This document shows positions 10,452 through 28,466 of a stretch of DNA of 32,837 bases, piece after piece. The number at the start of each line of letters is the position of its first letter. Position 1 is the stretch's first letter. Position numbers and translations under genes: made by a program. The stretch is taken from the NCBI GenBank assembly GCA_019638595.1, contig JAHBTJ010000040.1:1-32837 (forward strand), written 5' to 3'. Source of the stretch: Chitinophagaceae bacterium. GTDB taxonomy: Bacteria > Bacteroidota > Bacteroidia > Chitinophagales > Chitinophagaceae. The notes beneath the pieces are model-generated. The model did not search any database. It was not told the origin of the DNA and saw only the letters and a list, made by a program, of their open reading frames with translations.

Positions 10452-12176
10452 ATGGACACTAAAATTAACGAACGCGTAGACTCATGGCTGAATGGCGCTT
10501 TTGACGAAGCCACCAAAGCCGACATAAAAAAGATACAATCGCAAAATCCTGATGAGCTTGTGGACGCTTTTTACAGGAACCTGGAGTTTGGTACCGGCGG
10601 GTTGCGTGGTATTATGGGAGTAGGAACCAACCGCATTAATAAATATACGATCGGTATGGCTACGCAGGGCTATGCCAACTATCTTAATAAAACATATCCC
10701 GGGGGGGAAATAAGAGTAGCCATAGCGCACGACAGCCGTAATAACAGCCGGCAGTTTGCCGAAATTACAGCCAATGTAATGGCCGCCAATGGTATTAAAG
10801 TATATTTATTTGAATCGTTGCGCCCCACCCCGGAACTATCGTTCGCTATTCGTACGCTGGGCTGCCAGGGAGGAGTAGTGTGTACCGCATCACATAATCC
10901 TAAAGAGTATAACGGTTACAAGGCTTACTGGAATGACGGGGGACAACTGGTGCCGCCGCACGATAAAAATGTAATAAAAGAAGTGGATAAAATCGCTTCG
11001 GTGGACGAAGTAAAATGGAGTGGGGGAGAAGAACGTATTGTGCTGATAGGGAAAGACATGGACGAAAAGTATTGGGAAATGGCGAAGGGACTGAGCGTGT
11101 ATCCCGATGTAATTGCCAAACAACACGACCTGAAAATCGTGTATACACCCATACATGGAACAGGCATTGTGCTGGTGCCTGAATTATTAAAGCGTTACGG
11201 CTTTACCAATGTAACGATCGTAGAAGAACAGGCAAAGCCCGATGGCAATTTCCCAACGGTAGTGTATCCCAATCCGGAAGAAAGCGAGGCGATGAGCATT
11301 GGTTTGAAAAAAGCCAAAGAGCTGAATGCTGATATATTGCTCGGCACGGATCCGGATGCAGACAGGGTGGGTATAGCGGTAAAGGATACCAAAGGCAACT
11401 GGTTGCTGGTAAACGGCAATCAAACTGCCGTACTGGCTTTCAGCTATTTGATAGAAGCGCGTAAGTCGAAAGGGATAGCCAAGTCCAACGACATGGTGGT
11501 AAAAACCATAGTAACCACTGATATGATAGACCGCTTTGCCGAGCAAAATGGTGTGGCCTGTTATAATGTGCTTACCGGTTTTAAATGGATCGCAGAGCTG
11601 ATAAAGGAAAAAGAAGGAATAGAAGATTATATTATTGGTGGTGAAGAAAGCTATGGCTTACTGGTTGGTCCCAAGCTGCGCGATAAAGATGCCGTAAGCG
11701 CTGTGGCAATATTGTGCGAAATGGCAGCTTACGAAAAAAATAAAGGCAGAAGCCTGTTCGAGAAGCTGATTGATCTGTACGTGCAGTATGGATTTTATAA
11801 AGAGCATCTGATATCCATCACTAAAAAAGGCATGCGCGGACAGGAAGAAATTGCTGAAATGATGCAGTCGTACAGGGACAATACTCCTAAATCCATTAAC
11901 GGGTCGCCTGTGGTGCAACTGCTCGATTATGAATTGCGCAAAGGGAAGAACCCGCAAACAGGAGAGGAGTGGGATATTACATTGCCCAAGTCGAACGTAC
12001 TGCAGTTTATCCTGGCTGATGGAAGCAAAATCTCCGCGCGTCCTTCGGGAACGGAGCCTAAAATAAAATTTTATTTTAGTGTAAACGACAGGCTAAGCAG
12101 CGCAGCAGCGTACGAATCAGTGAACGAGCAGTTGAATGAACGCATCAAGAGCATCATTGCCGACATGAAGCTGTAA
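10452..12176 (+). CDS. Phosphoglucomutase/phosphomannomutase (alpha-D-phosphohexomutase)
   Basis: The product has 574 aa, the usual length of the PGM2-like branch. All four active-site loops are present: phosphoserine loop TASHNPKEYNGYK with Ser147, metal loop GTDPDADR (298-305; Asp300, 302 and 304 bind Mg2+), sugar-binding loop GGEESYG (396-402), and phosphate-binding loop RPSGTEPK (530-537). It interconverts hexose 1-phosphates and 6-phosphates in the cytoplasm, feeding glycogen, nucleotide sugars and exopolysaccharide. The FGTGGLRGIMG motif near residue 46 is typical of this branch. It ends at a convergent terminator shared with the truncated BamA remnant. Substrate preference (glucose, mannose or deoxyribose/pentose) is not visible. 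Confidence 0.95.
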   Translation: MDTKINERVDSWLNGAFDEATKADIKKIQSQNPDELVDAFYRNLEFGTGGLRGIMGVGTNRINKYTIGMATQGYANYLNKTYPGGEIRVAIAHDSRNNSRQFAEITANVMAANGIKVYLFESLRPTPELSFAIRTLGCQGGVVCTASHNPKEYNGYKAYWNDGGQLVPPHDKNVIKEVDKIASVDEVKWSGGEERIVLIGKDMDEKYWEMAKGLSVYPDVIAKQHDLKIVYTPIHGTGIVLVPELLKRYGFTNVTIVEEQAKPDGNFPTVVYPNPEESEAMSIGLKKAKELNADILLGTDPDADRVGIAVKDTKGNWLLVNGNQTAVLAFSYLIEARKSKGIAKSNDMVVKTIVTTDMIDRFAEQNGVACYNVLTGFKWIAELIKEKEGIEDYIIGGEESYGLLVGPKLRDKDAVSAVAILCEMAAYEKNKGRSLFEKLIDLYVQYGFYKEHLISITKKGMRGQEEIAEMMQSYRDNTPKSINGSPVVQLLDYELRKGKNPQTGEEWDITLPKSNVLQFILADGSKISARPSGTEPKIKFYFSVNDRLSSAAAYESVNEQLNERIKSIIADMKL

Positions 12177-12647: not shown

Positions 12648-13274
12648 TTATATCATTCCTGATTCAACAGCTTTTTTAAGAAGAGCGGTTGCGGAATTTA
12701 CACCCATTTTTTCCATCATATTCCTGCGGTGAGATACGATAGTGTGCTTACTCAGGAATAAGTTCAATGCAGTTTGTTCGATCGTTTTTCCTGACGCAAT
12801 ATATTTTAGTATTTCATATTCCCTCGGAGTAAATAAAGCTCTGCGCGTTCGTTGTACATTATTTGTCATTATTGACCGTACATCGGCACTCATAAAAAAC
12901 CTTCCATTCTCAATAGCGCACAGGCATTCTTCAATTTCATGCCGCTCCGAAGTTTTTGAGATAAAGGCATTGGCACCCTCTTTCTGTAAATGCGCCATCA
13001 CATTGGTGTTTGTCAGGCTGCTGACAACAATTATAAAAATGCCCGGATAGCCCGCCCGTATGCCGGCTATTTCAGCCAGGGTGTTCACCTGCGGCATCAT
13101 ATAATCAATAAACAGATGCGTAGATTCTCCTTTAACCAGCAATTGCTTTACTTCATCAATACTTTGAGCACATATGGTATTGTTAAAGCAATTTGTTTCT
13201 TTTAACAGGCAAGCCCATGCGAGCGAAAAAAGTTTGTGATCATCAAGCACAACAGCATTCCGATGGTTGTTCAT
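12648..13274 (-). CDS. LuxR/NarL-type response regulator
   Basis: The product has 208 aa counted from the ATG at 13274. The receiver domain has the acidic pair Asp11-Asp12, phospho-acceptor Asp57 (LFIDYMMP), Ser in VVSS and Lys in FISKTS, so it looks phosphorylatable. The C-terminal DNA-binding domain is a four-helix LuxR HTH: FTPREYEILKYIASGKTIEQ, then LFLSKHTIVSHRRNMMEKMG. An upstream in-frame ATG at 13325 would add 17 residues (MFRSLFNLFIHYSKKCC) and start 3 nt after the kinase stop, which would suit translational coupling; receiver homology does not need it. It is paired with the soluble kinase 13329-14087 immediately upstream. Its stop codon abuts the BamA remnant. Confidence 0.88.
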   Translation of the reverse strand: MNNHRNAVVLDDHKLFSLAWACLLKETNCFNNTICAQSIDEVKQLLVKGESTHLFIDYMMPQVNTLAEIAGIRAGYPGIFIIVVSSLTNTNVMAHLQKEGANAFISKTSERHEIEECLCAIENGRFFMSADVRSIMTNNVQRTRRALFTPREYEILKYIASGKTIEQTALNLFLSKHTIVSHRRNMMEKMGVNSATALLKKAVESGMI

Positions 13275-13328
13275 ACAGCACTTTTTGGAATAATGAATAA
13301 ATAAATTGAACAGGCTGCGGAACATTTT

Positions 13329-14087
13329 TTAACCGGAAAGCGGTAGCGAAACTTTCAGCGCGCATCCGTTTCCAACAGCGCTTTTTATTTCCATAGCTCC
13401 ATTAAATTTAACGATCCTTGCATATATGTTCGACATTCCGGTACCTGCTGCCGCCCTGGATGTATCAAAGCCCACACCGTCGTCTGAGATCATCAGAACG
13501 GCTTTTTTGCTCCGGCATATCAGCCTGATGTCGACATGTTTTGCCTTACTGTGTTTTATAATGTTGTTTAATTGCTCCTGGAAGATGCGGAATAACATTA
13601 GCCGGCGTTGTGCACATATTTTTGTCAGATCATTGTTCCTGCTATGCTTAAAACTTATTTTAAAGATACCAAGGGCTTTTATTTTCGCAACCAGGTCGGT
13701 TATTAGCTGTAAAAGCGATACATCCTTTTTTTGAGATACCACAAGTTCCGCCGAAATAATCCTGATATTGTCAATTGCAGATGTAAGTATAGAAAGCGCC
13801 TGCTCCCGGGCGGCCATTCCTTTTACAGTATCAACTTCAATGCAATCAATATATAATTTAACCACCGCTAACAGGGAGTTCACTCCATCGTGAAGTTCCC
13901 GCCCTATTTTTGTTCTTTCCTCCTCCTCGATCATGAGCTGTATATCAAGAAATTCTTTTTCGGAAATACCTTTCCCTTTCAGATTACGGCGATAAAAATC
14001 CAGGCTGGAAACATCTGCTTTCTCACCGTTGCAATACAATGGGCTGGTTGGCTCAGGATTGGAATACATTTTTCTTTCAAAAGGCAT
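13329..14087 (-). CDS. Soluble HisKA_3-type sensor histidine kinase without a sensor domain
   Basis: The product has 252 aa. The H-box EEERTKIGRELHDGVNSLLA contains the phospho-acceptor His66 and is of the NarL-partner (HisKA_3) type. The ATPase domain has an N-box (EQLNNIIKHSKAKHV), G1 box DDGVGFD and G2-like GTGMSNI, ending in GNGCALKVSLPL. There is no signal peptide, transmembrane helix or recognisable input domain; only about 55 polar residues precede the H-box, so its input must come from a partner protein. It is followed by its likely cognate regulator 12648-13274 on the same strand. The divergent neighbour is the TPR sensor 14801-16900, a candidate partner by position only. Confidence 0.9.
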   Translation of the reverse strand: MPFERKMYSNPEPTSPLYCNGEKADVSSLDFYRRNLKGKGISEKEFLDIQLMIEEEERTKIGRELHDGVNSLLAVVKLYIDCIEVDTVKGMAAREQALSILTSAIDNIRIISAELVVSQKKDVSLLQLITDLVAKIKALGIFKISFKHSRNNDLTKICAQRRLMLFRIFQEQLNNIIKHSKAKHVDIRLICRSKKAVLMISDDGVGFDTSRAAAGTGMSNIYARIVKFNGAMEIKSAVGNGCALKVSLPLSG

Positions 14088-14800: not shown

Positions 14801-16900
14801 ATGAATAGAGATAAAAAAGTAAGGAAGATATTATTAATTACAGAGAAAGGAACTCCGGGTTACTCTTTCTCTCATCCGTTTTACCTGCTCATAACATACT
14901 GTAGCATTGTATTATTCTTGTCCTGTAAAGAAAATCCATCTCAATACTACCATCCTGAGTATTTTGATAGTATTTATCAGAAAATCCCCCTGCCAGACAG
15001 CAATGTAACCGCCGCCGATATTCAGTTCCTGGATGCCTCTTACAACGCTTTTGTTCATCCCGGTATTGGCGATATATACCGCAAATACAATTATAAACGT
15101 CATTTTTTTTATGATGCGCACAGGGATTATCAGCGGGGAATGCTTTATTGTGACAGTATTATTGACCTGTTATACAATTATACCTCCAACAAAGAAATTG
15201 CATGGTATTACGCAGATGCGATTTTTGTGAAGGGTGATATACTGATGCATACTCAGAAATTTGAAGAAAGCATGAGAATGTACCTGGAGGGTAAGAATAT
15301 CGTGCTGAATCTGTTAAAAGATTCATGTCTGCTTAATGAATATAACGGACGGGTGGGTAAACTGTTATACGAGCAGGGCGATTTCCTTGAGTCAGCCAAA
15401 AGCTATAAAGCGGGTTTTAACGATCAACAGAAGTGTAAATGGGACAATGCGAGAAAGTTTGCTTCCATGCAGGAGTACCTGGATAATATAGGCATTTGCT
15501 ATAGTCTTGCCGGCATGTACGATAGTGCTGATCTTTATTTTTCTTCAACGCTTGATTTTATTGACCGTAATAAAGGGAATGCCACCGTAACTAAAGGTTT
15601 TGTGACGCTTGCCAAAGCAGTTGTATACAGTAACCAGGCAGAGGTAGCTGGTAAAAAAGGGAACTTTCAGATGGCAGAGGAACTTTTTTTAAAAAGTATT
15701 GAAGGTACTGCTAACGTGGATCATTCTTTTACTCACGACACGCAATTGAAACTGGTGTCCTTTTATTTCCGGAACAATTATCCCGAAAAAGCAGCTAAAG
15801 TGCTGACTGACGTGAAAAGCTCGCTTGGAAACTTTCCTGATGATATTTCGCTACTCCATTGGTACCAGCATATGAAGTATTATGCTCTCAGGCAACATAA
15901 ACCCGGCGATGCCGTGACGTTCATGAAATTATATCTCCGCCTGAAAGATTCTGTTGAGATGCGAGACATGCAAATAGTTGCCCGGGACATAAGCAATGAG
16001 TTTGAAACAATAGAACAAAAGTCTTTGCGACGGTCTTTAGAAAGTGAAAACAAACGTAAGTCGGTTTTTATAGCAATGGTCATAACATTTTGCGTATTGA
16101 CAGGAGGAATATTGCTCTTGTTGTGGTATAATATACGCCGGTCGCACCGTTTTGCCGGGGTTATGACAGGCTTAAACAAAGAGATCGGCTTAAAGAACCA
16201 GGACCTGCAGGAAGCTTTTAATATCCTGGAGCAAACCTATAATGAAAACAGTAAAATTATCCGGGCCGTTTCATTCAATTTAAAAAGCCATATTGCTAAT
16301 ATCATACGAACCACAGCACGGTTGCAAAGCAGGCAGTACAGCAGGGAAATTAAAAACAAACTCGATATTATTGAAAACACCTGTGCCAACTCCTTACAAA
16401 CAATTTCCGAGATGACACCCGGTGTAAAAACGGGTATGAAATTCAGGATGGAACGCACGGACCTTGCCGTACTGCTTGAACAATGCGTAGAGCTGCTTCG
16501 ATCCAAAGCAGAAGAAAAAAATCAATCTATCCGGTTAAGGGCTGAAAGCATTATAACGAAAGTAGATACCCAAAGGTTCATGCGGGCCATTAACAACCTT
16601 TTGCACAATTCAGTAAAATTCAGCCCGGATCATTCGGTAATTGAGATCAGCCTGGAGAAAGAGGGTGGTGTTGCCCTGGTATCTGTACTGGATAAGGGTA
16701 TAGGCATACCGGATGAAATTAAAGAAAATATATTTTCGTTAAACACGGCCGGGAGCAGAAGAGGAACAAGCGGCGAAGAATCTTATGGCATGGGGCTTTT
16801 TATAACTAAAAAGGTTGTAGATGAACATCACGGGCGTTTGTGGTTTAGTAATCGCAATAAGGGAGGTACCGCATTCTACATAGAAATACCATTATCCTGA
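14801..16900 (+). CDS. TPR-transmembrane histidine-kinase-like protein with intact ATPase domain but no phospho-acceptor His
   Basis: The product has 699 aa. An N-terminal hydrophobic export segment ends in VLFLSC (Cys42, a non-ideal lipobox). A periplasmic TPR array follows to about residue 410 (repeats such as NIGICYSLAGMYDSADLYFS), then one transmembrane helix at 422-444 and a coiled-coil linker. The dimerisation helix reads IIRAVSFNLKSHIANI, where the classic S-H-E-L-R-T-P pattern has become S-F-N-L-K-S-H, putting Phe492 in place of the phospho-acceptor. The HATPase_c domain looks intact: N-box RAINNLLHNSVKFSPD (592 onward), G1 DKGIGI (631-636), G2 SYGMGLF (661-667), and final GGTAFYIEIPLS. 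It should bind ATP but cannot phosphorylate itself at the usual site. The next gene (9 nt to its ATG) has the His without an ATPase domain. Confidence 0.9.
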   Translation: MNRDKKVRKILLITEKGTPGYSFSHPFYLLITYCSIVLFLSCKENPSQYYHPEYFDSIYQKIPLPDSNVTAADIQFLDASYNAFVHPGIGDIYRKYNYKRHFFYDAHRDYQRGMLYCDSIIDLLYNYTSNKEIAWYYADAIFVKGDILMHTQKFEESMRMYLEGKNIVLNLLKDSCLLNEYNGRVGKLLYEQGDFLESAKSYKAGFNDQQKCKWDNARKFASMQEYLDNIGICYSLAGMYDSADLYFSSTLDFIDRNKGNATVTKGFVTLAKAVVYSNQAEVAGKKGNFQMAEELFLKSIEGTANVDHSFTHDTQLKLVSFYFRNNYPEKAAKVLTDVKSSLGNFPDDISLLHWYQHMKYYALRQHKPGDAVTFMKLYLRLKDSVEMRDMQIVARDISNEFETIEQKSLRRSLESENKRKSVFIAMVITFCVLTGGILLLLWYNIRRSHRFAGVMTGLNKEIGLKNQDLQEAFNILEQTYNENSKIIRAVSFNLKSHIANIIRTTARLQSRQYSREIKNKLDIIENTCANSLQTISEMTPGVKTGMKFRMERTDLAVLLEQCVELLRSKAEEKNQSIRLRAESIITKVDTQRFMRAINNLLHNSVKFSPDHSVIEISLEKEGGVALVSVLDKGIGIPDEIKENIFSLNTAGSRRGTSGEESYGMGLFITKKVVDEHHGRLWFSNRNKGGTAFYIEIPLS

Positions 16901-16963
16901 TCAATTAAAATGTAACAGGCAAAAAAGTATTTTATCAACCCAGGACTGAACATATTATTATTC

Positions 16964-18502
16964 GTGTTTTTAACATGCCTGGCGGCATGCAGAGAAGAAT
17001 TTGCCAATGATGAGCATCCGGCATACTTTGACCGGGCCATAAACGCCTTTGACAGTATGGGAACAACAGAGCCATTGCGGAGCGTGGAAATACTTGATTC
17101 TTCTTACCATGCTTTTCCCCGCCCGGGTATTATTGACCAGCAAAATGTAATGCTTGCCAAGCTGATTTTTTTCTATGAAATCAAAAGAGATACTCCTCTT
17201 ACTTATCTGTACCTTGACAGTGCCATAAACTTGATAAAGAACAACGTTAAAGCTAACGAAAAAAGGGCAGTGGCATACGCACTGATGCTCAGGAGCAAGG
17301 CTTATTGTTTAAAAACCGTACGGAACTATAACGAAGCTTTGCATTATTACCTGATGGCCAGCCAGGTAGTTGCAGCGTATGTTAAAGATCCCTGTTTTGC
17401 AGAAGCAGATAAAAGTTACATAGGCGATATCATGTTCGCGCAGGGCAAGTATATGCTGGCTGCGGAGAACTACCGTGCAGATAATGAAAAAGTTACCCGG
17501 TGCGGAGAAAAGGTATTTGTCCGCTTCTTTCTTATTCAGAAAAATCTTTCAAACATAGGTCTTTGTTATTTTAAAATGGGGTTGTACGATAGTGCTTATA
17601 TATACTATAACCGGTCGCTTGAGTTCATCAACCAAAACTGGCGGGTGTATGGTCTGGATAAGAACCTGCCATTTCTAAATATTGCCCGCGCTACAGCCAG
17701 CGGTTTTATGGCAACCGTGCTGGTACAAAAACTGGAATATCAGCAGGCAGAAGAATTATTCGCTCAGTCAATTGAAGGGGTAAAAGTGGCTGATCCGGGT
17801 TTTTGCGAGATGCTTATGGCAAGCCAGGCTGCAATGTATGTGCAGTTGAAAGAAACGAACAAGGCATTATTGGCCCTGCGGGTGCTGGACAGCATGCTTA
17901 ACAAGCACAAAAACACGGAAATACTGTTGGAAAGCTACAGGATAAAATCTGACTTGTATGACGCTCAAAAAAATGATTACCTGTTCCTGCAATATGCGGA
18001 ACGCTATACGAGCCTTAAAGATTCGGTAAAAAATGCCGCTAAGTTGTTTGACAGGAAGAACCTGGAGTTAGAGTTTGAAAATAATGAAGGAGAAGGTATT
18101 AATCAACGCCTGGAGGAACGCAGCCGCGAAAAAAACCGCTTGCTTATGGGAGCAACCGGAAGCGCTGTTTTGCTTTGTTGCATTGTTGCTTTAATATGGC
18201 GGAGCCTGAAAAATACGCGTAAATACCTGGAACGTTTACGGCATTTAAATAAAATTGTTGTAACCAAAAAGCAGGCGCTCGAAAACGCGTTGGTATCCGT
18301 TGAGCAAAGTAATCATGAAAACAGTCGTATGATGAAAATCGTTGCCCATGATCTCAGAAGCCCGGTAACAGGCATTAGCCATATTGTATTTTCTATACTT
18401 GCCGGTTGCCGGGATACTGATATTAAAAAAGACCTTGAGCTTATACAGGAGGAATGTAAAAATTGCGATACGCTTATACAGGCGCTGTTATTAAAAGGCT
18501 GA
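16964..18502 (+). CDS. TPR-transmembrane protein with HisKA-like His helix but no ATPase domain; start codon uncertain
   Basis: The product has 512 aa if counted from GTG at 16964. The signal sequence FLTCLAAC has a good lipobox, but the GTG would leave it without its N-terminal half. In-frame codons upstream encode KKYFINPGLNILLFVFLTCLAAC back to an ATG at 16910 whose next codon is TAA (16913-16915). The natural start therefore seems to carry a stop at codon 2, and initiation may use a non-AUG codon such as CTG at 16946. A TPR array follows, then a transmembrane helix (393-412) and a coiled coil, and the helix SRMMKIVAHDLRSPVTGIS with intact phospho-acceptor His462. The protein ends at residue 512, about 50 residues later, where the HATPase domain would start. 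It is clearly paralogous to the preceding gene throughout. It could be phosphorylated in trans by 14801-16900, or be decaying. Confidence 0.75.
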   Translation: MFLTCLAACREEFANDEHPAYFDRAINAFDSMGTTEPLRSVEILDSSYHAFPRPGIIDQQNVMLAKLIFFYEIKRDTPLTYLYLDSAINLIKNNVKANEKRAVAYALMLRSKAYCLKTVRNYNEALHYYLMASQVVAAYVKDPCFAEADKSYIGDIMFAQGKYMLAAENYRADNEKVTRCGEKVFVRFFLIQKNLSNIGLCYFKMGLYDSAYIYYNRSLEFINQNWRVYGLDKNLPFLNIARATASGFMATVLVQKLEYQQAEELFAQSIEGVKVADPGFCEMLMASQAAMYVQLKETNKALLALRVLDSMLNKHKNTEILLESYRIKSDLYDAQKNDYLFLQYAERYTSLKDSVKNAAKLFDRKNLELEFENNEGEGINQRLEERSREKNRLLMGATGSAVLLCCIVALIWRSLKNTRKYLERLRHLNKIVVTKKQALENALVSVEQSNHENSRMMKIVAHDLRSPVTGISHIVFSILAGCRDTDIKKDLELIQEECKNCDTLIQALLLKG

Positions 18503-18603
18503 ACCTGCTAATCCGACACGCAGGCTTATTACCTTAGGAATAAAACGTGAAGCTTAACCCAACCTTATTACATTATTATATCGCGTTTCAATGATTAGCA
18601 GGT
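18503..18603. repeat. 101-bp segment bounded by perfect 11-bp inverted repeats
   Basis: ACCTGCTAATC (18503-18513) and GATTAGCAGGT (18593-18603) are perfect inverse complements 79 bp apart. The left end begins directly after the TGA of the truncated kinase. It could be a small terminal-inverted-repeat element or a long-loop hairpin ending the transcript. No clear target-site duplication is visible. Confidence 0.5.
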
Positions 18604-18651
18604 ACTGACTTTAACCATCCATCATATTCCTTGTTTTTCGGGCGCACATGC

Positions 18652-18698
18652 CCGGCTAATTTTAAATGATAAATGTAGCCGGCATTTTAAATGATAAA
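18652..18698. repeat. Two-copy tandem repeat, about 27-bp period
   Basis: CCGGCTAATTTTAAATGATAAA (18652-18673, given in two parts: CCGGCTAA, TTTTAAATGATAAA) is repeated as CCGGCATTTTAAATGATAAA (18679-18698). The two copies differ by a 2-bp gap and lie 80-130 bp upstream of the response-regulator gene. Confidence 0.6.
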
Positions 18699-18723
18699 AA
18701 AGAATTGTAAATTTAGTGTAGCG

Positions 18724-18765
18724 GGTTATAATACAATAATAACCAGAATACTGATCTTACAGTAT
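18724..18765 (+). promoter_or_regulatory. Two inverted repeats upstream of the response regulator 18779
   Basis: GGTTAT-N9-ATAACC (18724-18744) and ATACTG-N6-CAGTAT (18748-18765) are perfect dyads stacked just before the ATG at 18779. They are candidate operator sites, possibly for autoregulation. No TAnnTTTG element was found. Confidence 0.4.
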
Positions 18766-18778
18766 AAATATTAAATCA

Positions 18779-19405
18779 ATGAAAATTATTATTGCTGACG
18801 ATCATTTGGTGGTACGGTTTGGACTTACAGAAATGTTACGCTCTTCTTTTCCTTCGGCGGAAGTAGAAGAAGCTGACGATGCTGAAGGGCTTTTTAAAAA
18901 GATGCTGAGAGGAAAATATGACCTGGTAATTCTTGACCTGTCGATGCCCGGCAGGTCGGGGTTAGAAGCATTGCAGCAAATTAAAACAAGTTATCCCGGC
19001 ACCCCGGTACTTATTTTCAGCGGGCAGCCCGAAGAGCAATATGCGGTCAGGGTTTTAAAAGCAGGCGCTTCCGGGTACCTCACAAAAAGCTCTGCTCCGG
19101 ATGAAGTGATAAAAGCTGTAAACGCATTGCTTCTTGGAAAAAAATATATTACTCCTTCAATAGCCGATCAGCTGGTGCTTTCTCTTGATGAAAAAAGAAA
19201 CAAGCTCCCGCATGAGCTGCTGTCCACGCGTGAGTTTGAGGTAATGAAACTGATCGCCTCAGGAAAAACAGTTTCAGAAATAGCCGAACAAATGATGCTG
19301 AGTGTCACCACTATCAGCACTTACCGGGCAAGGATATGCGATAAAATGAACCTGGGCTCTAATGCGCAGATGGTTGTTTATTGTATTGAGAACAAGCTGC
19401 TTTAA
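18779..19405 (+). CDS. LuxR/NarL-type response regulator
   Basis: The product has 208 aa. The receiver starts directly at residue 1 (MKIIIADDHLVVRFGL) with Asp7-Asp8, phospho-acceptor Asp53 (LVILDLSMPG), Ser in IFSGQ and Lys in GYLTKSS, all conserved. The LuxR HTH covers about residues 145-208: LSTREFEVMKLIASGKTVSE, then MMLSVTTISTYRARICDKM. It lies 276 bp downstream of the split kinase pair on the same strand and is the most likely target of phosphate from His462 of that pair. A hairpin follows the stop codon. Confidence 0.95.
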   Translation: MKIIIADDHLVVRFGLTEMLRSSFPSAEVEEADDAEGLFKKMLRGKYDLVILDLSMPGRSGLEALQQIKTSYPGTPVLIFSGQPEEQYAVRVLKAGASGYLTKSSAPDEVIKAVNALLLGKKYITPSIADQLVLSLDEKRNKLPHELLSTREFEVMKLIASGKTVSEIAEQMMLSVTTISTYRARICDKMNLGSNAQMVVYCIENKLL

Positions 19406-19413
19406 CTTACTGC

Positions 19414-19437
19414 TTTTGTAGTTGGAATTCTACAAAA
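19414..19437 (+). terminator. Hairpin after the response regulator
   Basis: TTTTGTAG, an 8-nt loop TTGGAATT, and CTACAAAA form a perfect 8-bp stem 9 nt after the stop codon. No immediate T run follows, so termination is plausible but weak. Confidence 0.45.
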
Positions 19438-19477
19438 AGCCCATTGCAATACTATATTTTTTCCCTGCAGGCGGCTC

Positions 19478-19485
19478 TATATTTG
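19478..19485 (+). promoter_or_regulatory. Promoter -7 element for the stand-alone receiver gene
   Basis: TATATTTG is an exact TAnnTTTG match 21 bp upstream of the ATG at 19507. No TTTG is seen at -33. It suggests the receiver gene can be transcribed separately from the upstream regulator. Confidence 0.5.
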
Positions 19486-19506
19486 CGCTAATCTTTCAAT
19501 GTAAGC

Positions 19507-19893
19507 ATGGGCCTGAAAAAACACAAATTACTGGTCGTTTGTGATTCCTCTTTTATCTGTAACCACCTGAAGCATATATTAAGTACTTTAGATGCTAATG
19601 TACATGTAAAAGAGGTTAACTCATTTACAGAAACCGCGCGAATGCTTGATAAAGAGAAACCACATGTTATCATACTTGATATCCCTGTTATTCAATCGTC
19701 TGAGCTCGGTTTGCTGTCGGTGATCAAAGATCTGTATCCCGACGTTTCTATTGTAATATTAATGGGAAGCCATAATAAGATATACCTGGAACAAAGCAGG
19801 AAAATTGGTTCGGGATATTTCATAAAGAATATACATGAAATTGAAGGGATCAATGAAATAGCCGGGTTGGAAAATAGTTTCAAAAAAAACTAA
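19507..19893 (+). CDS. Stand-alone degenerate receiver (CheY-like) protein
   Basis: The product has 128 aa, a single receiver domain with no output domain. The acidic pocket is half lost: canonical Asp-Asp is Cys12-Asp13 (LLVVCDSSF). The phospho-acceptor position keeps Asp58 (VIILDIPV), but the usual MPG after it is missing. The conserved Thr/Ser after strand 4 is Met86 (VILMGSH). The switch Lys is present (Lys107, GYFIKN). With Mg2+-binding and Thr switch residues altered, it may not be phosphorylated normally and could act as a phosphate sink, an adaptor or a pseudo-receiver. It is the last gene of the split-kinase cluster and converges with the large T9SS gene. Confidence 0.85.
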   Translation: MGLKKHKLLVVCDSSFICNHLKHILSTLDANVHVKEVNSFTETARMLDKEKPHVIILDIPVIQSSELGLLSVIKDLYPDVSIVILMGSHNKIYLEQSRKIGSGYFIKNIHEIEGINEIAGLENSFKKN

Positions 19894-19964: not shown

Positions 19965-22900
19965 TTATTTCTTCATTAGCTTCTCATGATGTACTACTTT
20001 TCCTGACGTATCTGTTATATGGATAAAGTACATGCCTGAAGGAAGCTGCTGAATATCTGCCGGCAAAGTATTGCCGCTTGCCTTTAAAGTGCGTAAGCGC
20101 TGACCGGTAATATTCATAATGTGTACGGTTTCATTGCCCTTTAGTCCCGTAATTTTTATGACGTCTTTAGCAGGATTGGGATAGATATGTATGTTTGCTT
20201 TACTTATAAAAGTTATAGCTCTAACGGGACTGTAGCTGTATGTGCCGTCAAAATCAATCTGCCTCAGGCGATAATAATTGATGCCGGTTTGCGACTGCTT
20301 ATCATTAAATGTATAAGACAGTTCAATACTGCTGTTACCATTGGCAGATAATGAGGATACAAAACCTATACTTTTCCATTCTCTGCTGTCGGCACTATGC
20401 TCTATGCTAAAGCCGCTGTTGTTTTGCTCTGCAGCAGTGGTCCATTGCAATAATGCTGTATTACCCTGCTTATATACTTCAAAGCGCTTAAGTGTTACAG
20501 GCAACGGCGTTCCCCAATGAATCACAAAAGTTCCCGGTTCCTCACTCTTTACACCGGCATCATCTAAAAATGAATAATCAAACTCCACACTAACAGAACC
20601 GGTTGTAATATTTTCAAACGATAACAAAGAAGAGTTAAAGCCTGTTATTGTATCGCCGGCATTTACCGGAATAGCATTGTATAGCATGATAGCATTACCA
20701 GGCAGGACATCAATAATGATTGCTGCATTGCTTCCGTTAAGCGTGCCTTGCTCCGGGTCCGTTCCTTCCACATCGGAAGTTATAGCACCCGCACCTATAA
20801 TGGCTCCGGCAGGATAGGCTACAGTTTGTAATATATTGTTGCTGAACGGTTGCTGATCTGCACCGAAGTTGGCCTCTGTAACAGGAACGGTAATGATCCC
20901 CAATGATAATATGCCATCAGCAATACCATCGTGTCCTGCACAGGCAGGAGTGATGCCGCAATTGTTTTCTCCCGTCACTTTCCAGCCACCGGGAAAGCTT
21001 ACCACGGGCAGGGTTTCCTGTCCGATCGTAGCCGGTGTAGCGCTGATATAAATACTGGCGCTGTTGCCGGCAACTGCCTTCAGCGAAAAAGAACCATCGG
21101 AGCTTATCTTCACCGTATCGGTTACCTTTTCCTCTGTATTATCATAAAGAATGGCATACAGTGTAGCACTCGCATCCGTACCCGGTCCGTTCACGGTATT
21201 ATCTGTTAGCCCGTTACTATCATTAAATACATTACCGCAAACAGCGTGTTTTACGGTATCAGTTATACTGCTGATGCAGTCGGTTGCCGATGCATAGCGG
21301 GTATAAACAGTGTATATGCCTGCAGTAAGATTTGTAAAGTCAGGAGAGCTTTGCCAGTCTATATCATTAATGCTATATTCATAAGCAGCACCAACAGGAT
21401 ATGTAACGGTAATGTTTCCGGCAGAGGAACCGCAGGCTGTATTTGCAACAGTAGCCGGTGTAGACGGAGGAGATATGGCAAGCGTAATATCGTCAAGAGC
21501 AAGATCATTACCAGTACCTCCAATAGTATTGTTCACCAGCAAAAGATCTATACTGCTTGATGTGGGCACAAATGTTAAACCATATTGATTCCATTGCCTG
21601 TAGCCTGATATATCTCCGGTTGAAACAGATGCGAGAATACTGTAATCCCCTGGGTTAATTGCCTGAAAAGTGACATTTGGTTTAATACCTGAGTTAAAAA
21701 TGCTGGCAATCCACGCTGAAAAGTTATAACTCGCGCCCGGTATTAAACCGCTAAAACGCCTTCGAAAGAAATCGTTTTTGTCGTAAGAAGCATTGACAAC
21801 CATCATTCTTCCATTGCCGGTACCATCCGTGTGATCATACATCTGGGGACTGCCGGGACCGAATCCTATATCCGTTACCCGGCTTATTACTTTATAATAG
21901 CCATCCTCCGCTGACCCGCTTACATCCTGGTGATGATAGGAAGTTTGCCCCGTCATCGGAGGTCCATAGGTACCCACAGCGCCTGTTCCGAAATCTTCAA
22001 TATAAATGTTAGTGCAACTGTTATCCATAGCAAAGGAGTTAACCAGCCCATTCGTAAAAATTACATGTACTGTTTCCCCGGAGCTAACATTCAGTGTAAC
22101 AGAATTGCTAACAAGATCGGCAGTAGAATTATTGGTAGGGTCGAATATCTCTATCTTCTGGAGGTCCCATCCTCCGGGAACAGTTTCCGTAATGGTATAA
22201 GTGCCCTCAATCACTTCAAACATCTGAGCATTTCCTGCTGCCGGGCTTGTTCTTACTCTTTCATCATCTATCCACCAGATATTTCCATTGCCGTCTGTCG
22301 AACGGGAAAATACAGGTTGGGTGAACCCGGTGCCCGAACCCTGATGGCGCAGCCATACCTGTCCGCCAATGCCTGCTGTGATGAAAGCTACCCGCCTCGA
22401 TGTAACCTCTTCAGTACTCCAACCCGTTCCTCCCAAAAATTTATACACATAGGCGGTGGATCCTATTGAATACACTCCGTAAATGGCGCCGGATGCATCT
22501 ACCGCAATATCTCCTACACTACCGCTGCTTACACCTGCAGGTTTGCCAAGATTGGTTTCTACACCTCCGGAAGTAATACGATAAACATTGCCACCGGTTT
22601 TGCCAACAATTGCATTTCCCGTAACAGGGTCGGCATCTAACCTGTTCGTATTGTTAGTACTGGTACCAACCCTGATCCATGAACCGCTGGTATAACGCCA
22701 TAAAGCGCCCGCGGCGGTAGTAATATAAACCGTACCTCCCCAGGTATTAGCAACATCTGCCGGATTGGATCCTCCAAAAGCAGCGTTATTGACATTGAGG
22801 GCAGTACTGGTAGTGCCGTTAAATGTAAATACCTGTTGACCTGAAATATAGGTAACCTGCCCGCCGGAGCCTCCGTCTATCCTGCCATTAGCTGTGGTAA

Positions 22901-23198
22901 CCGCTGTCTGTACCCAATCTGCACTGCCCATATCCCGGTAGTATAAAGTATTATTATTGCTCACAGCCCATAACCTTCCGTTTTGCGAGCTGCCGATATC
23001 TCTTATTAATATATTATCCGGCCTGTCATTCAGCATAAAGTCGGGCACCGGTGTTATTCCCCCGGAGACTGAGTAGGTAAAATCCACTGCAGAAGATTCG
23101 TCCAGCGTTTTATTATGAATATAAATATAGCCCTGCTGGGCAGTAAGATGATTTACCAGTAAGGTCAAAGCAAAGATCAGTATGGTAAAATTTTTCAT
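19965..23198 (-). CDS. Large T9SS-exported multidomain protein
   Basis: The product has 1077 aa from the ATG at 23198, which opens the signal peptide MKNFTILIFALTLLVNHLTAQ; an ATG 34 codons upstream (23300) is possible but would bury it. The first 300 mature residues carry tectonin/propeller-like repeats (GRLWAVSNNNTLYYRD, GGTVYITTAAGALWRYTSGSW, GAIYGVYSIGSTAYVYKFLG). Next is a prealbumin-like segment (GTYTITETVPGGWDLQKIEI), then a jelly-roll, carbohydrate-binding-like region with EDFGTGAVGTYG and DLALDDITL, a SprB-like repeat (YEYSINDIDWQSSPDFTNLT) and an Ig-like region. The C-terminus is a type A T9SS sorting domain (IYPNPAKDVIKITGL to the last Lys-Lys). It should be exported through the outer membrane and anchored or released at the surface, probably as an adhesin or lectin. 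No catalytic site is seen. The island palindrome lies 267 bp upstream. Confidence 0.88.
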   Translation of the reverse strand: MKNFTILIFALTLLVNHLTAQQGYIYIHNKTLDESSAVDFTYSVSGGITPVPDFMLNDRPDNILIRDIGSSQNGRLWAVSNNNTLYYRDMGSADWVQTAVTTANGRIDGGSGGQVTYISGQQVFTFNGTTSTALNVNNAAFGGSNPADVANTWGGTVYITTAAGALWRYTSGSWIRVGTSTNNTNRLDADPVTGNAIVGKTGGNVYRITSGGVETNLGKPAGVSSGSVGDIAVDASGAIYGVYSIGSTAYVYKFLGGTGWSTEEVTSRRVAFITAGIGGQVWLRHQGSGTGFTQPVFSRSTDGNGNIWWIDDERVRTSPAAGNAQMFEVIEGTYTITETVPGGWDLQKIEIFDPTNNSTADLVSNSVTLNVSSGETVHVIFTNGLVNSFAMDNSCTNIYIEDFGTGAVGTYGPPMTGQTSYHHQDVSGSAEDGYYKVISRVTDIGFGPGSPQMYDHTDGTGNGRMMVVNASYDKNDFFRRRFSGLIPGASYNFSAWIASIFNSGIKPNVTFQAINPGDYSILASVSTGDISGYRQWNQYGLTFVPTSSSIDLLLVNNTIGGTGNDLALDDITLAISPPSTPATVANTACGSSAGNITVTYPVGAAYEYSINDIDWQSSPDFTNLTAGIYTVYTRYASATDCISSITDTVKHAVCGNVFNDSNGLTDNTVNGPGTDASATLYAILYDNTEEKVTDTVKISSDGSFSLKAVAGNSASIYISATPATIGQETLPVVSFPGGWKVTGENNCGITPACAGHDGIADGILSLGIITVPVTEANFGADQQPFSNNILQTVAYPAGAIIGAGAITSDVEGTDPEQGTLNGSNAAIIIDVLPGNAIMLYNAIPVNAGDTITGFNSSLLSFENITTGSVSVEFDYSFLDDAGVKSEEPGTFVIHWGTPLPVTLKRFEVYKQGNTALLQWTTAAEQNNSGFSIEHSADSREWKSIGFVSSLSANGNSSIELSYTFNDKQSQTGINYYRLRQIDFDGTYSYSPVRAITFISKANIHIYPNPAKDVIKITGLKGNETVHIMNITGQRLRTLKASGNTLPADIQQLPSGMYFIHITDTSGKVVHHEKLMKK

Positions 23199-23464
23199 AA
23201 AATATGTTTTAGGCAGCGGCAATTCGGTCAGTGAGCCGGCTGCTTTCGTATTTTGATCAGTCAAACGGGTGAAAAGAATATTTACATTTATACCTGCCAT
23301 ACATGTGGCTTTTGAGCGAAATGAGATATGATTTTTACAATGGGTTTGTATGTTTATGGGGTTGTTCGTACGCAGTTGTTTTTGTATGCAGGTTGCCTTA
23401 CATCAAATAAAATGTCAGGCGCTCAGATGCAGGGCCAAATTCCAATACTTTAGTCATTTTCACC

Positions 23465-25697: not shown

Positions 25698-26318
25698 TTA
25701 ATTCGACATGTATTTCTTTATCACTTCGCTGCGGTTGCGTACCTGTAGCTTTTCATAAATGTTGTGCGCATGTTTTTTAATGGCGTCAATGCCAACATTA
25801 AGCTTTGCCGCAATCTCTTTATACAGAAAGCCCTCTACGATCAAAGCAAGCACTGATTTTTCTTTTTCGGTAAGGGCATTAAAGCGCAGCTTCTCGTCAT
25901 CGCGTTGAAAATAGGCGATCACTTTCCTGGCTATTTCCGGCGACATGGGGGCGCCATTATTATACAGTTCTGTTATTTCAGTAATAAGGTGATCGAAAAA
26001 AAGCTTTTTCAGCAGGTATCCGCCGGCGCCGGCTTTTAACGCGGTAAAAACTTTTTCATCGTCATTAAAAATGGTTAGCACCAGGAACTTGGCCCGTGGA
26101 TAGCTGGATTTGATCTTAAAGATCGCTTCGGTGCCAGACATGCCCGGGAGGTCCAGGTCGGTTACGGTAATATCCGGCTGAAGCTCTTCATACTTTTCAA
26201 TAAACATTTCTGCATTGGAAAATGAACCAATACAGGAAATGCTGTCACTGGCATTCAATATATCCTCTATTGCTTTGCGTACCATGTGCTGATCCTCAAC
26301 AATACAAACGGTAATCAA
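25698..26318 (-). CDS. LuxR/NarL-type response regulator
   Basis: The product has 206 aa. The receiver has Glu8-Asp9 (CIVEDQHMVRKAI), phospho-acceptor Asp54 (TVTDLDLPGMSG), Thr in VLTIF and Lys in GYLLKK, all functional. The LuxR HTH fills the C-terminus: LTEKEKSVLALIVEGFLYKE, then LNVGIDAIKKHAHNIYEKL. It follows the TPR histidine kinase 26544-28466 on the same strand after 225 bp and is its likely partner. The gap contains a copy of the island palindrome about 160 bp upstream of this gene, so it may have its own regulated promoter. Confidence 0.95.
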   Translation of the reverse strand: MITVCIVEDQHMVRKAIEDILNASDSISCIGSFSNAEMFIEKYEELQPDITVTDLDLPGMSGTEAIFKIKSSYPRAKFLVLTIFNDDEKVFTALKAGAGGYLLKKLFFDHLITEITELYNNGAPMSPEIARKVIAYFQRDDEKLRFNALTEKEKSVLALIVEGFLYKEIAAKLNVGIDAIKKHAHNIYEKLQVRNRSEVIKKYMSN

Positions 26319-26478
26319 TTTATTATTCTTTTAATAGATATAAATGCCGGTTATTATGATTGATCATTGGGTGTTATATCAAATATGAGATGAACTTTCA
26401 CATCAAATGCCTCACTTCTCACAATAACCACAACAAGGTTGCACCGGCAATAATACGTTCCATCCTGGTTTGGAAAAA

Positions 26479-26494
26479 GTATACTTTTGTGTAC
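26479..26494. promoter_or_regulatory. Island palindrome, copy 4
   Basis: GTATACTTTTGTGTAC matches the dyad with one mismatch (C to T at position 4). It lies 160 bp upstream of the response-regulator start at 26318 and 49 bp past the kinase stop at 26544. Confidence 0.65.
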
Positions 26495-26543
26495 TATTCT
26501 TACTTTATTGTAAATTTTCGTTGTAGCTGCAACCGGCGTTATT

Positions 26544-28466
26544 TTATGGTTCCTTCAGCTCCGCAGGTATATCAATGGTGATCTGCAATCCCCCCCGGTT
26601 CTCAAATAAAATATTACCGTTTATGCTGCTTATTCTCTTTTTCATGTTATTGATACCGTTCCCTTCTGAGTTTTGGATTTCATGTAAACCTATACCATTG
26701 TCCTTTGCTATTATCCTTATCTTCTTTTCGCTGCAGGAAAAACCGATCAAAAACTGATTGGCTTTCGAATGTTTTATTACATTATGGAATATTTCTTTAA
26801 CTACCAGCAAAAGATTCCTTTGCTGAATGTTGTTGATATGATGATCTTCCTTACAGTTGTTTTTAAAATCAAGGGAAAGATTGATATCTGTTCTCTGGAT
26901 ATACTCGGCCATATATACTCTTAAATGTGCCATCAATCCATTAACGCTCCCTACGGTATCCTTCAGCATCCACACAATTTCGCTCATCTGGTCAATCGCT
27001 TCGCCCGATATCTGCGAAATGTTCTTCAGGATTGTTCCTGAACTTTCTCCCGGGTTGGTAGACAACCTGTTGACGACGATCTGCAGGCAGGTGAGACTGC
27101 TGCCTAAATCGTCATGCAACTCTCTTGATATTCTTTCTCGTTCGTTTTTTAATGCAAGCTTTCTCTGCAGCCTGGCTGACCGTTTATAGTTATTTCTCAT
27201 CAAGATGGAAATGACTATAATCATCAGGGCTATGGAAATAGCTGCAAGAAGGTAAGCCTGCTTTAGCTGGATATCTTTCGTGAGCGCTTCATTCACCGCT
27301 TTCTGGTACCTCTTCTCCATGTCTGCACTGATATTGACAGACGTAAATTTTTTATTGGCTTCATCCACTGAATCTTTAAACGAAATATATTTTTTGAGTT
27401 GTGCAACAGCTTCCCCTGTCTCACTCAACTTTAAATGATGATCGGCCCTGACCTGGTAATATTTAAGGTGGTTATTCGCATCTGGCAGCGTACCCAGCGA
27501 ATCCCTCACCTTGTCCAGCCATTTTCCGGCTTCATCAAGCCTGCCGGTAAATGTAAGCATATCAGCAAGCTCCAATTGCAGGTTCTGGGCAAAATTATCA
27601 TTGCGCCTTTCGAACACCGCAAGTGATTTGATGTATAAGGATTCTGCTTCGGTGCGGTTGTTTTTTTGCGCATAATAACCTGCCAGGTTTCCCCATACTA
27701 CTGCTTTTGCTGTTTGTATATATTGCTGCCGGGTTGGGAACTTCGGCTCCTGCTTCAGGATATATTCCATAGCCGCATTGAAATAATGTACAGCGCTATC
27801 CCATTGATGCAGCTTTGCATAACATAAACCCACATTATCCAGATTAGCTTGTGAATAAACAAATGTCAGGAATTCGTTGGTGACGCTACTGCAATTGATC
27901 TCTTTTATTGCAAGCTTAAAATATTCAGCAGCAGCGTTGAAGTCTTTTTGTTTATACATGAGGCTGGCAAGGCGTTGCGTGTAACTGTGTGTGCTACAGC
28001 TATCCGTAAACGTCTTTTCTGCGATCACACGCGATCTCGTATAGCACACAAAGCTCTCATCATAGTTTTGCACCGCCAGGTATATATCTCCTTTGGAGGC
28101 CAGCGTGGAGGCATACCATTTTGCAAATTTGACCTGATTGATCTTGTTTGCCGTCAGGTCAAGCATACTGTCAGCATATTTAAACGCTTCCTCAAAGTTG
28201 CGTTGCCGCTGGTAAAAAGCGCATTTAAAGCCATAGAACTCCAGCCAGTCTTCCGTACCGGGATATTTTATATGATGGAAAGCCGAATCAAGAAAATCCA
28301 TTTGTTCCCGGCTATTTTCAGGCAAAGTATTTACCTGTGCCAATAAAGCTTTTACCTGCTGCCCCGGCGCTTTATCCACCTGGTTACAAGAGGCATTAAG
28401 TGCCACAAGAAACGCAAAAAACGGTACCAGGTAATAGGAAATAACAATCTTTTCTTGTCCTCTCAT
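26544..28466 (-). CDS. TPR-transmembrane sensor histidine kinase (HisKA_3 + HATPase_c)
   Basis: The product has 640 aa. A signal-like N-terminus (YYLVPFFAFLVALNASC, imperfect lipobox) leads into a periplasmic TPR array to about residue 395 (NVGLCYAKLHQWDSAVHYFN is one repeat). One transmembrane helix is at 406-423, then a short linker. The H-box ERERISRELHDDLGSSLTCL has phospho-acceptor His451. The ATPase domain has the N-box VVKEIFHNVIKHSKAN, G1 KDNGIGL and G2 GNGINNMKKR, ending GGLQITIDIPAEL. Architecture and TPR sequence (FLDSAFHHIKYPG) match the two plus-strand TPR sensors, but this one is complete and has a different, HisKA_3-type dimerisation domain. The partner regulator is 25698-26318. 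Confidence 0.94.
   Translation of the reverse strand: MRGQEKIVISYYLVPFFAFLVALNASCNQVDKAPGQQVKALLAQVNTLPENSREQMDFLDSAFHHIKYPGTEDWLEFYGFKCAFYQRQRNFEEAFKYADSMLDLTANKINQVKFAKWYASTLASKGDIYLAVQNYDESFVCYTRSRVIAEKTFTDSCSTHSYTQRLASLMYKQKDFNAAAEYFKLAIKEINCSSVTNEFLTFVYSQANLDNVGLCYAKLHQWDSAVHYFNAAMEYILKQEPKFPTRQQYIQTAKAVVWGNLAGYYAQKNNRTEAESLYIKSLAVFERRNDNFAQNLQLELADMLTFTGRLDEAGKWLDKVRDSLGTLPDANNHLKYYQVRADHHLKLSETGEAVAQLKKYISFKDSVDEANKKFTSVNISADMEKRYQKAVNEALTKDIQLKQAYLLAAISIALMIIVISILMRNNYKRSARLQRKLALKNERERISRELHDDLGSSLTCLQIVVNRLSTNPGESSGTILKNISQISGEAIDQMSEIVWMLKDTVGSVNGLMAHLRVYMAEYIQRTDINLSLDFKNNCKEDHHINNIQQRNLLLVVKEIFHNVIKHSKANQFLIGFSCSEKKIRIIAKDNGIGLHEIQNSEGNGINNMKKRISSINGNILFENRGGLQITIDIPAELKEP

Follow-up and report, generated by a model that had tools for sequence, protein, structure and literature searches.

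Can two adjacent sensor genes, each missing a different half of the catalytic machinery, make up one histidine kinase? The question is raised by a stretch of 32,837 nucleotides from a Chitinophagaceae bacterium (contig JAHBTJ010000040.1; hereafter the window), in which two genes, here called FIRST and SECOND, lie 63 bp apart on the + strand, their open reading frames (ORFs) being at the coordinates given in the initial annotation of this DNA. Both belong to a family with the layout tetratricopeptide repeat (TPR) lipoprotein-like sensor, transmembrane (TM) helix, coiled coil, DHp (HisKA) domain, and HATPase_c domain. The parts that matter here are as follows:

14801 to 16900, + strand: FIRST, a TPR lipoprotein-like sensor with TM helix, DHp without acceptor His, and HATPase_c; 699 amino acids (aa)
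16274 to 16276, + strand: codon of Phe492 of FIRST, at the site of the acceptor His
16565 to 16894, + strand: HATPase_c domain of FIRST, residues 589-698, E 3.1e-21
16964 to 18502, + strand: SECOND, a TPR sensor with TM helix, DHp with acceptor His, and no ATPase; 512 aa counted from GTG
18320 to 18490, + strand: HisKA (DHp) domain of SECOND, residues 453-509, E 5.9e-7
18347 to 18349, + strand: codon of His462 of SECOND, the acceptor in AHDLRSP

Complementary losses in two tandem paralogues

FIRST and SECOND are a real complementary pair. The family signature, i.e., a TPR region, a lipobox Cys, a TM helix, and a coiled coil over ~400 residues, is present in both proteins, and of 19 columns conserved at 90% in the TPR-lipoprotein HisKA kinase family FIRST has 15 and SECOND has 17. 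The family norm is a His box together with HATPase_c in one protein, which neither FIRST nor SECOND shows; FIRST has an ATPase without an acceptor, and SECOND has an acceptor without an ATPase. The initial annotation had described them in this way, and both descriptions are borne out by the domain matches listed above, by the alignment of the box, in which Phe492 of FIRST stands opposite His462 of SECOND, and by a tblastn analysis of the region beyond SECOND. Domain searching listed no HisKA match in FIRST at E values up to 1 and no HATPase match in SECOND. Relatives read H-D-L-R-N-P at the box, and FIRST reads F-N-L-K-S-H: of 45 aligned rows, the 44 other than FIRST have H in the box column, D in the next column, and P five residues past the box His, where FIRST has F, N, and H, respectively. 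This alignment omits 8 of the 53 rows examined (L155, L024, L021, L004, L149, L150, L025, and L019), the reasons being a fragment, HisKA_3-like boxes, frameshifts, an interrupted ORF, and a contig end.

The ORF of SECOND terminates where the second DHp helix ends. When the last 190 aa of long ORFs of the family were compared by tblastn with positions 18400-18778, the best of 7 matches (19 aa, E 6.6e-4) was SECOND's own DHp helix 2. Among the other matches shown, two fall outside SECOND, one of 16 aa on the minus strand (E 0.017) and one of 21 aa (E 0.031); they correspond to the stretch that precedes the ATPase and were taken as chance. No ATPase remnant was found 3' of SECOND in 18400-18778, and a sequencing frameshift that hides the ATPase was rejected because this interval holds no ATPase-like sequence. 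The same test exposes an ATPase in another frame for the short family genes L149 and L150, which are frameshifts; L019 (G052) and L186 (G526) are truncated by contig ends.

Both defects stand out among the kinases inspected. Of the 53 family rows of our first set, 49 have a HisKA-type DHp, and the acceptor His is present in 48 of these, with FIRST as the exception. A further family set gave rows for 18 of 19 loci (L191 gave none), all 18 with the His; 16 of them fit a simple ATPase pattern. L186 is cut off by the end of its contig, and in L197 the pattern missed an ATPase domain that is evident. In the window's own genome, where HisKA and HATPase matches were paired by place and frame length, 29 ORFs match HisKA and all but SECOND share their open frame with an HATPase match, making SECOND the 1 of 29 without an ATPase. 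HATPase matches numbered 63, of which 31 were taken as HisKA-type, namely, 28 with a HisKA match in the same frame and 3 with E <1e-20 and no HisKA match; by eye, two of these three have an H-E box, and the third is FIRST, the 1 of 31 inspected without a box His. The acceptor inspection covered these 31 matches; the other 32 have E values of 7.4e-16 or weaker. That FIRST and SECOND are adjacent follows from their being tandem paralogues; the point of interest is that both losses hit the same tandem pair and complement each other.

We also assessed how well the retained halves are conserved, using as reference 42 rows that exclude FIRST, SECOND, and the second copy of a tandem pair in genome G284 (described below). 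At columns conserved at ≥90%, FIRST shares 30 of 34 ATPase residues, against 30-34 (mean 33.0) in the relatives, and its four departures are Lys to Arg, Ala to Ser, Gln to Lys, and Ile to Leu; of the four box residues conserved at that level FIRST keeps none and SECOND keeps all. A Fisher test of box versus ATPase losses in FIRST gave p 0.0009, the contrast having been chosen after the data were seen. Of the 11 DHp residues conserved at the 70% level, 3 remain in FIRST and 11 in SECOND (relatives 6-11), and identity to the DHp of four intact relatives is 20-24 of 56 for SECOND and 10-12 of 56 for FIRST. The several box substitutions in FIRST suggest an old loss during which the ATPase would have been kept. 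SECOND has 512 open codons, coding-like composition, and an intact His box. The anatomy of the pair, the uniqueness of both defects among the inspected kinases, and the conservation of the kept halves are the observed basis for what follows.

Our tentative first choice, held with limited confidence, is that FIRST and SECOND are tandem duplicates that lost complementary halves and work as a split kinase, perhaps recently damaged. A HisKA-type TPR sensor kinase would have been duplicated in tandem and its copies would have lost complementary halves, with FIRST becoming an ATP-binding subunit that has no phosphorylatable residue at the usual site and SECOND becoming an acceptor and phosphotransfer subunit, perhaps a phosphatase too. 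If both are made, they would pair through the coiled coil and the DHp bundle, His462 of SECOND would be trans-phosphorylated by the ATPase of FIRST, and from SECOND the phosphate would go to a receiver, possibly that of the regulator gene at 18779. The fuller version, an obligate heterodimeric membrane kinase with two full sensors and half the machinery in each, would have come about when tandem copies of an ordinary HisKA kinase suffered complementary losses; its output would require both proteins and possibly both signals, as in a two-sensor gate. We regard this version as doubtful.

The alignment also shows a possible substitute acceptor in FIRST:

16289 to 16291, + strand: codon of His497 in FIRST, at the site of the conserved box Pro, a possible shifted acceptor

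FIRST might be a self-sufficient kinase that uses His497, five residues past the usual place and standing for the conserved Pro, as its acceptor. However, the adjoining acidic residue is lost (D to N), and by established helix geometry a shift of five residues puts a side chain on another face of the helix, so we rate self-sufficiency as very improbable.

For structure prediction, a single chain was fused through the stops, from the coiled coil of FIRST to the end of SECOND, with 49 relative rows for the FIRST half only. The model had a mean predicted local distance difference test (pLDDT) score of 68.6 and a predicted template modeling (pTM) score of 0.43; block means were 81-98 in the ATPase of FIRST, and both DHp hairpins were helical. 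Foldseek on this model returned DHp-ATPase kinases, including HK853 (5uht), and also DivL (4q20). FIRST alone of the two keeps its ATPase with the box His replaced, in this case by Phe; DivL, whose name comes from the PDB title, we take to be a pseudokinase with Tyr at the box His.

A working split kinase weighed against decay

Several observations weigh against a working split kinase, and the foremost concerns the start of SECOND, for which two features upstream are relevant:

16910 to 16915, + strand: in-frame ATG followed at once by TAA, upstream of SECOND
16916 to 16963, + strand: in-frame stretch completing the lipoprotein signal of SECOND, with no ATG, GTG, or TTG before 16964

The listed start, GTG 16964, is 8 codons ahead of the lipobox Cys, and the in-frame codons 16916-16963 read as the remainder of a lipoprotein signal. 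The sole in-frame ATG upstream (16910) runs directly into TAA (16913), and an ATG, GTG, or TTG at least 15 codons before the lipobox Cys is present in 44 of 45 rows, SECOND being the row that lacks it. There are three possibilities: an unusual start codon in SECOND, a recent interruption of the gene, and an assembly error in the 16913 region. It is mainly because SECOND has no normal start that our confidence in a split kinase is limited. As to FIRST, its 30 of 34 ATPase residues match the lowest count in the 42 relatives, and of the residues conserved at the 70% level it keeps 38 of 52, fewer than any relative (40-51, mean 47.1); relaxed selection is therefore possible. Moreover, if the family phosphorylates in cis, a simple heterodimer could not function in the proposed way.

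The distribution of the pair belongs on the same side. Our genome searches scored only the best candidates (up to 10 or up to 3 per genome), and their counts are therefore lower bounds and their absences not absolute. Within that scope, the pair was not seen in 11 same-genus genomes, no other such pair was seen in 394 genomes of the taxonomic family, and none was seen in 33 genomes of the genus of G424, a genome that carries an intact relative; retention of the pair in more than one species was not found in the genomes searched. With SECOND as query, matches occurred in at least 55 of 148 genomes (E 0.001 or better) and at least 83 of 394 genomes of the window's taxonomic family (E 1e-12 or better), its own genome being counted both times, and the distribution across that family is patchy. 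With FIRST as query, all 148 genomes gave matches, mostly through the common ATPase domain. A scan of named genomes, from which records of the own or a very near genome were possibly excluded, gave 16 pattern matches and no relative for SECOND; for FIRST it gave 40 pattern matches and 10 loci, the latter all matching within residues 420-699 at 21-40% identity, which are kinases in general and nothing close. The initial annotation had set beforehand, as the observation that would speak for local decay, close relatives with His and ATPase in one protein or with only one of the genes, and this is largely what we encountered: the relatives carry both halves in one protein and the pair was not seen in the other genomes searched, which gives no sign of a conserved system.

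In seven same-genus stretches around the phosphoglucomutase gene (10452-12176 in the window), no window gene was found beyond that gene (matches >60 bits). In the closest genome, G004, whose phosphoglucomutase gene is 96% identical, no counterpart of the pair lies in the 13.5 kb after it (L091). The window segment 12177-32837 has a GC content of 0.416, and the part to its left 0.444.

Descent was examined in the part of the proteins that precedes the box. A tree with 45 rows placed FIRST, SECOND, and L118 (the intact single-gene kinase in G424, which belongs to another genus) in a clade with support 100/96; when 14 rows from the genus of G424 were added and 16 removed, a second tree gave the same clade support of 98/95. 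The tree program warned that the long branches of L118 and SECOND join, and the branch lengths of FIRST and SECOND (1.34 and 1.78 versus a median of 0.74) are a further mark against a working split kinase. An exclusive clade of FIRST and SECOND was not rejected (approximately unbiased test, p-AU 0.298); this and the clade shared with L118 count in favor of our first choice. The TPR/TM parts of FIRST and SECOND are identical at 108 of 407 positions, which points to an old duplication; no intermediate was found in the genomes searched. Near L118, G424 has a surface protein with a similar C terminus, a LuxR-type regulator, and a HisKA_3-like kinase; this synteny is loose, and we do not use it as an argument.

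A parallel tandem pair was found in G284 (L137 5958-9654, on G284:C1), in which a full kinase of 699 aa with His and ATPase overlaps by 8 bp a downstream copy of 534 aa whose ORF likewise stops at the DHp. A tblastn analysis of 3.5 kb starting near the end of that copy gave no ATPase match better than E 0.086. The two copies are identical at 209 of 419 positions of the TPR/TM part and group together (100/100), apart from FIRST and SECOND; the ATPase loss there therefore arose separately. As an orthologue of FIRST and SECOND the G284 pair was rejected, its copies being 51% identical and in a clade of their own, with His and ATPase in the upstream copy. Loss of the ATPase in a downstream tandem copy has been seen twice, i.e., in SECOND and in G284, and loss of the His in the partner once. 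That a second tandem pair has a downstream copy stopping at the DHp counts for the split kinase. Because the upstream G284 copy has both halves, a downstream ATPase loss need not imply a split enzyme, and this point tells against a working pair. No second pair like that of G284 was seen in 61 genomes of its genus, 9 of which gave a match. In G490, two adjoining pieces look like a single interrupted gene.

The main rival is local decay. In this reading SECOND, with no ATPase and a stop right behind its probable start, is on its way to extinction, FIRST has become a pseudokinase or is decaying too, and the complementarity is a coincidence within a tandem duplicate. The absence of the pair from the other genomes searched, the ATG-TAA at the start of SECOND with no start codon where all but 1 of the 45 rows have one, the location in the segment beyond phosphoglucomutase, of which the seven same-genus stretches compared showed no gene, and the ATPase of FIRST at or under the low end of its relatives all fit decay, and other family genes carry frameshifts or stops (L149, L150, and L025). 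Against it stand the long open frame, coding-like composition, and intact His box of SECOND and the retention of the most conserved ATPase residues in FIRST while its box is gone. We consider local decay a serious contender that ranks close behind the working split kinase, which is plausible. An established obligate system, as the initial annotation had proposed, is only partly supported: the complementary, unique defects and the conserved halves hold, and the pair unseen elsewhere and the doubtful start of SECOND do not favor it.

In a further explanation, FIRST and/or SECOND pair with the genome's two intact paralogues, at C2 and C10, and modulate them, with FIRST as an ATPase-bearing pseudokinase and SECOND as a decoy acceptor or phosphatase. 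The presence of these paralogues is one point in its favor, the G284 arrangement of an intact kinase next to an ATPase-less copy is another, and HisKA proteins without an ATPase, suspected of acceptor or phosphatase roles, are known from the portion of PMC5847659 that we cite. Nevertheless, the DHp of FIRST is identical to that of L003, the C2 paralogue, at just 11 of 56 positions, making cross-pairing with L003 doubtful; for SECOND the figure is 24 of 56, and pairing with L003 is less disfavored. Overall, we think such regulatory partnerships improbable.

Neighboring two-component genes and possible output

Under a working split kinase, the candidate output lies directly downstream:

18638 to 18655, + strand: terminator-like hairpin past SECOND and ahead of the regulator (by consensus match only)
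18779 to 19405, + strand: LuxR-type (GerE) response regulator with canonical receiver residues, the candidate target
19507 to 19893, + strand: stand-alone receiver with acceptor Asp and Lys kept and one acidic and the Thr/Ser switch residue changed

The roles of these receiver residues are general knowledge. The initial annotation had the pair feeding regulator 18779, a putative link that has against it the hairpin and a promoter-like site (18705-18732, consensus match only) in the interval from SECOND to the regulator; terminator-like sites numbered 8 versus 5.1 expected in shuffles. The nearest homologue of the regulator in the genome, at C51 (56% identical), adjoins a stand-alone receiver and a 717-aa kinase whose best match in the window is the HisKA_3-type kinase at 13329-14087, and this neighborhood appears to count against tying regulator 18779 to FIRST and SECOND. 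For such a link speaks the intact paralogue at C2, which has a receiver 187 bp downstream that is 42% identical to the receiver of 18779. Of six counterparts of the C2 kinase in other members of the genus, none has a regulator directly adjoining, and one has a weaker match 3.6 kb away.

Other observations concern these genes. The gene directly after the intact paralogue kinase, G000:C2:92103-92459, encodes a receiver only and was unseen directly beside its six genus counterparts. A regulator followed by a stand-alone receiver occurs both at G000:C51:78332-79485 and at 18779-19893 in the window, and a regulator 53-57% identical to 18779 is present in 10 of 11 same-genus genomes. A second two-component pair of the segment, at 12648-14087, consists of a regulator and a small HisKA_3-type kinase (252 aa) and reads away from FIRST. 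At 25698-28466 are a response regulator and a 640-aa kinase with a HisKA_3-like box, whose TPR part is 29% like FIRST; a similar protein is present in G007 (L021). Directly after the receiver, on the other strand, 19965-23300 encodes a large protein with a Por-type secretion sorting domain, and a C-terminal domain similar to that of this protein adjoins the G424 kinase.

Comparison with known split kinases

The intact TPR-lipoprotein HisKA kinases of the same family share with FIRST and SECOND the TPR-TM-coiled coil-DHp layout and hold both halves in one protein. HK1-HK2-TcrA (Rv0600c-Rv0601c-Rv0602c) is listed or mentioned in PMC8965865, PMC9274095, and PMC5309233. It has two adjacent kinase genes for one regulator. 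Reportedly, one kinase has the ATPase and the other the acceptor; these are said to be two partial kinases, unlike the two full sensors FIRST and SECOND. The known split kinases that we encountered are of the CheA type or, reportedly, partial kinases. We recognized no description of paralogous HisKA sensors with complementary losses in the literature searched, which covered subscription journals thinly.

The initial annotation had held that no described family shows this division, but CheA3 and CheA4 of Rhodobacter sphaeroides divide the work in just this way: according to the cited part of PMC3591291, neither autophosphorylates alone, a mixture of the two leads to phosphorylated CheA3, and, as in the pair, one protein is catalytic without the phosphorylated domain and the other is an acceptor without the catalytic domain. 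Unlike FIRST and SECOND, they are CheA-type proteins with a separate P1 domain, located in a cytoplasmic chemotaxis cluster, and not membrane sensor paralogues with a shared DHp. As a precedent, they count in favor of a working split kinase. In Synechocystis, Hik36 and Hik43 carry the acceptor (HPt) and catalytic parts on two genes, and their products interact in a two-hybrid assay; as described in the part of PMC7656254 cited, they are a cheA homologue split over two distant genes, without duplicate sensors. Archaeal "HisKA, no HATPase" proteins resemble SECOND in having a sensor and a HisKA domain with His and no ATPase, and section 7 of PMC5847659 mentions no neighboring ATPase-only partner.

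If decaying, FIRST and SECOND would be a snapshot of kinase duplicates on their way out, with little wider meaning. If active, they would show an ordinary homodimeric sensor kinase turned into an obligate heterodimer by differing losses in its two copies and would form a natural two-input gate. The split principle is already known from CheA3 and CheA4 (PMC3591291, as far as cited); the new part would be the route, i.e., two full HisKA membrane sensors with complementary losses.

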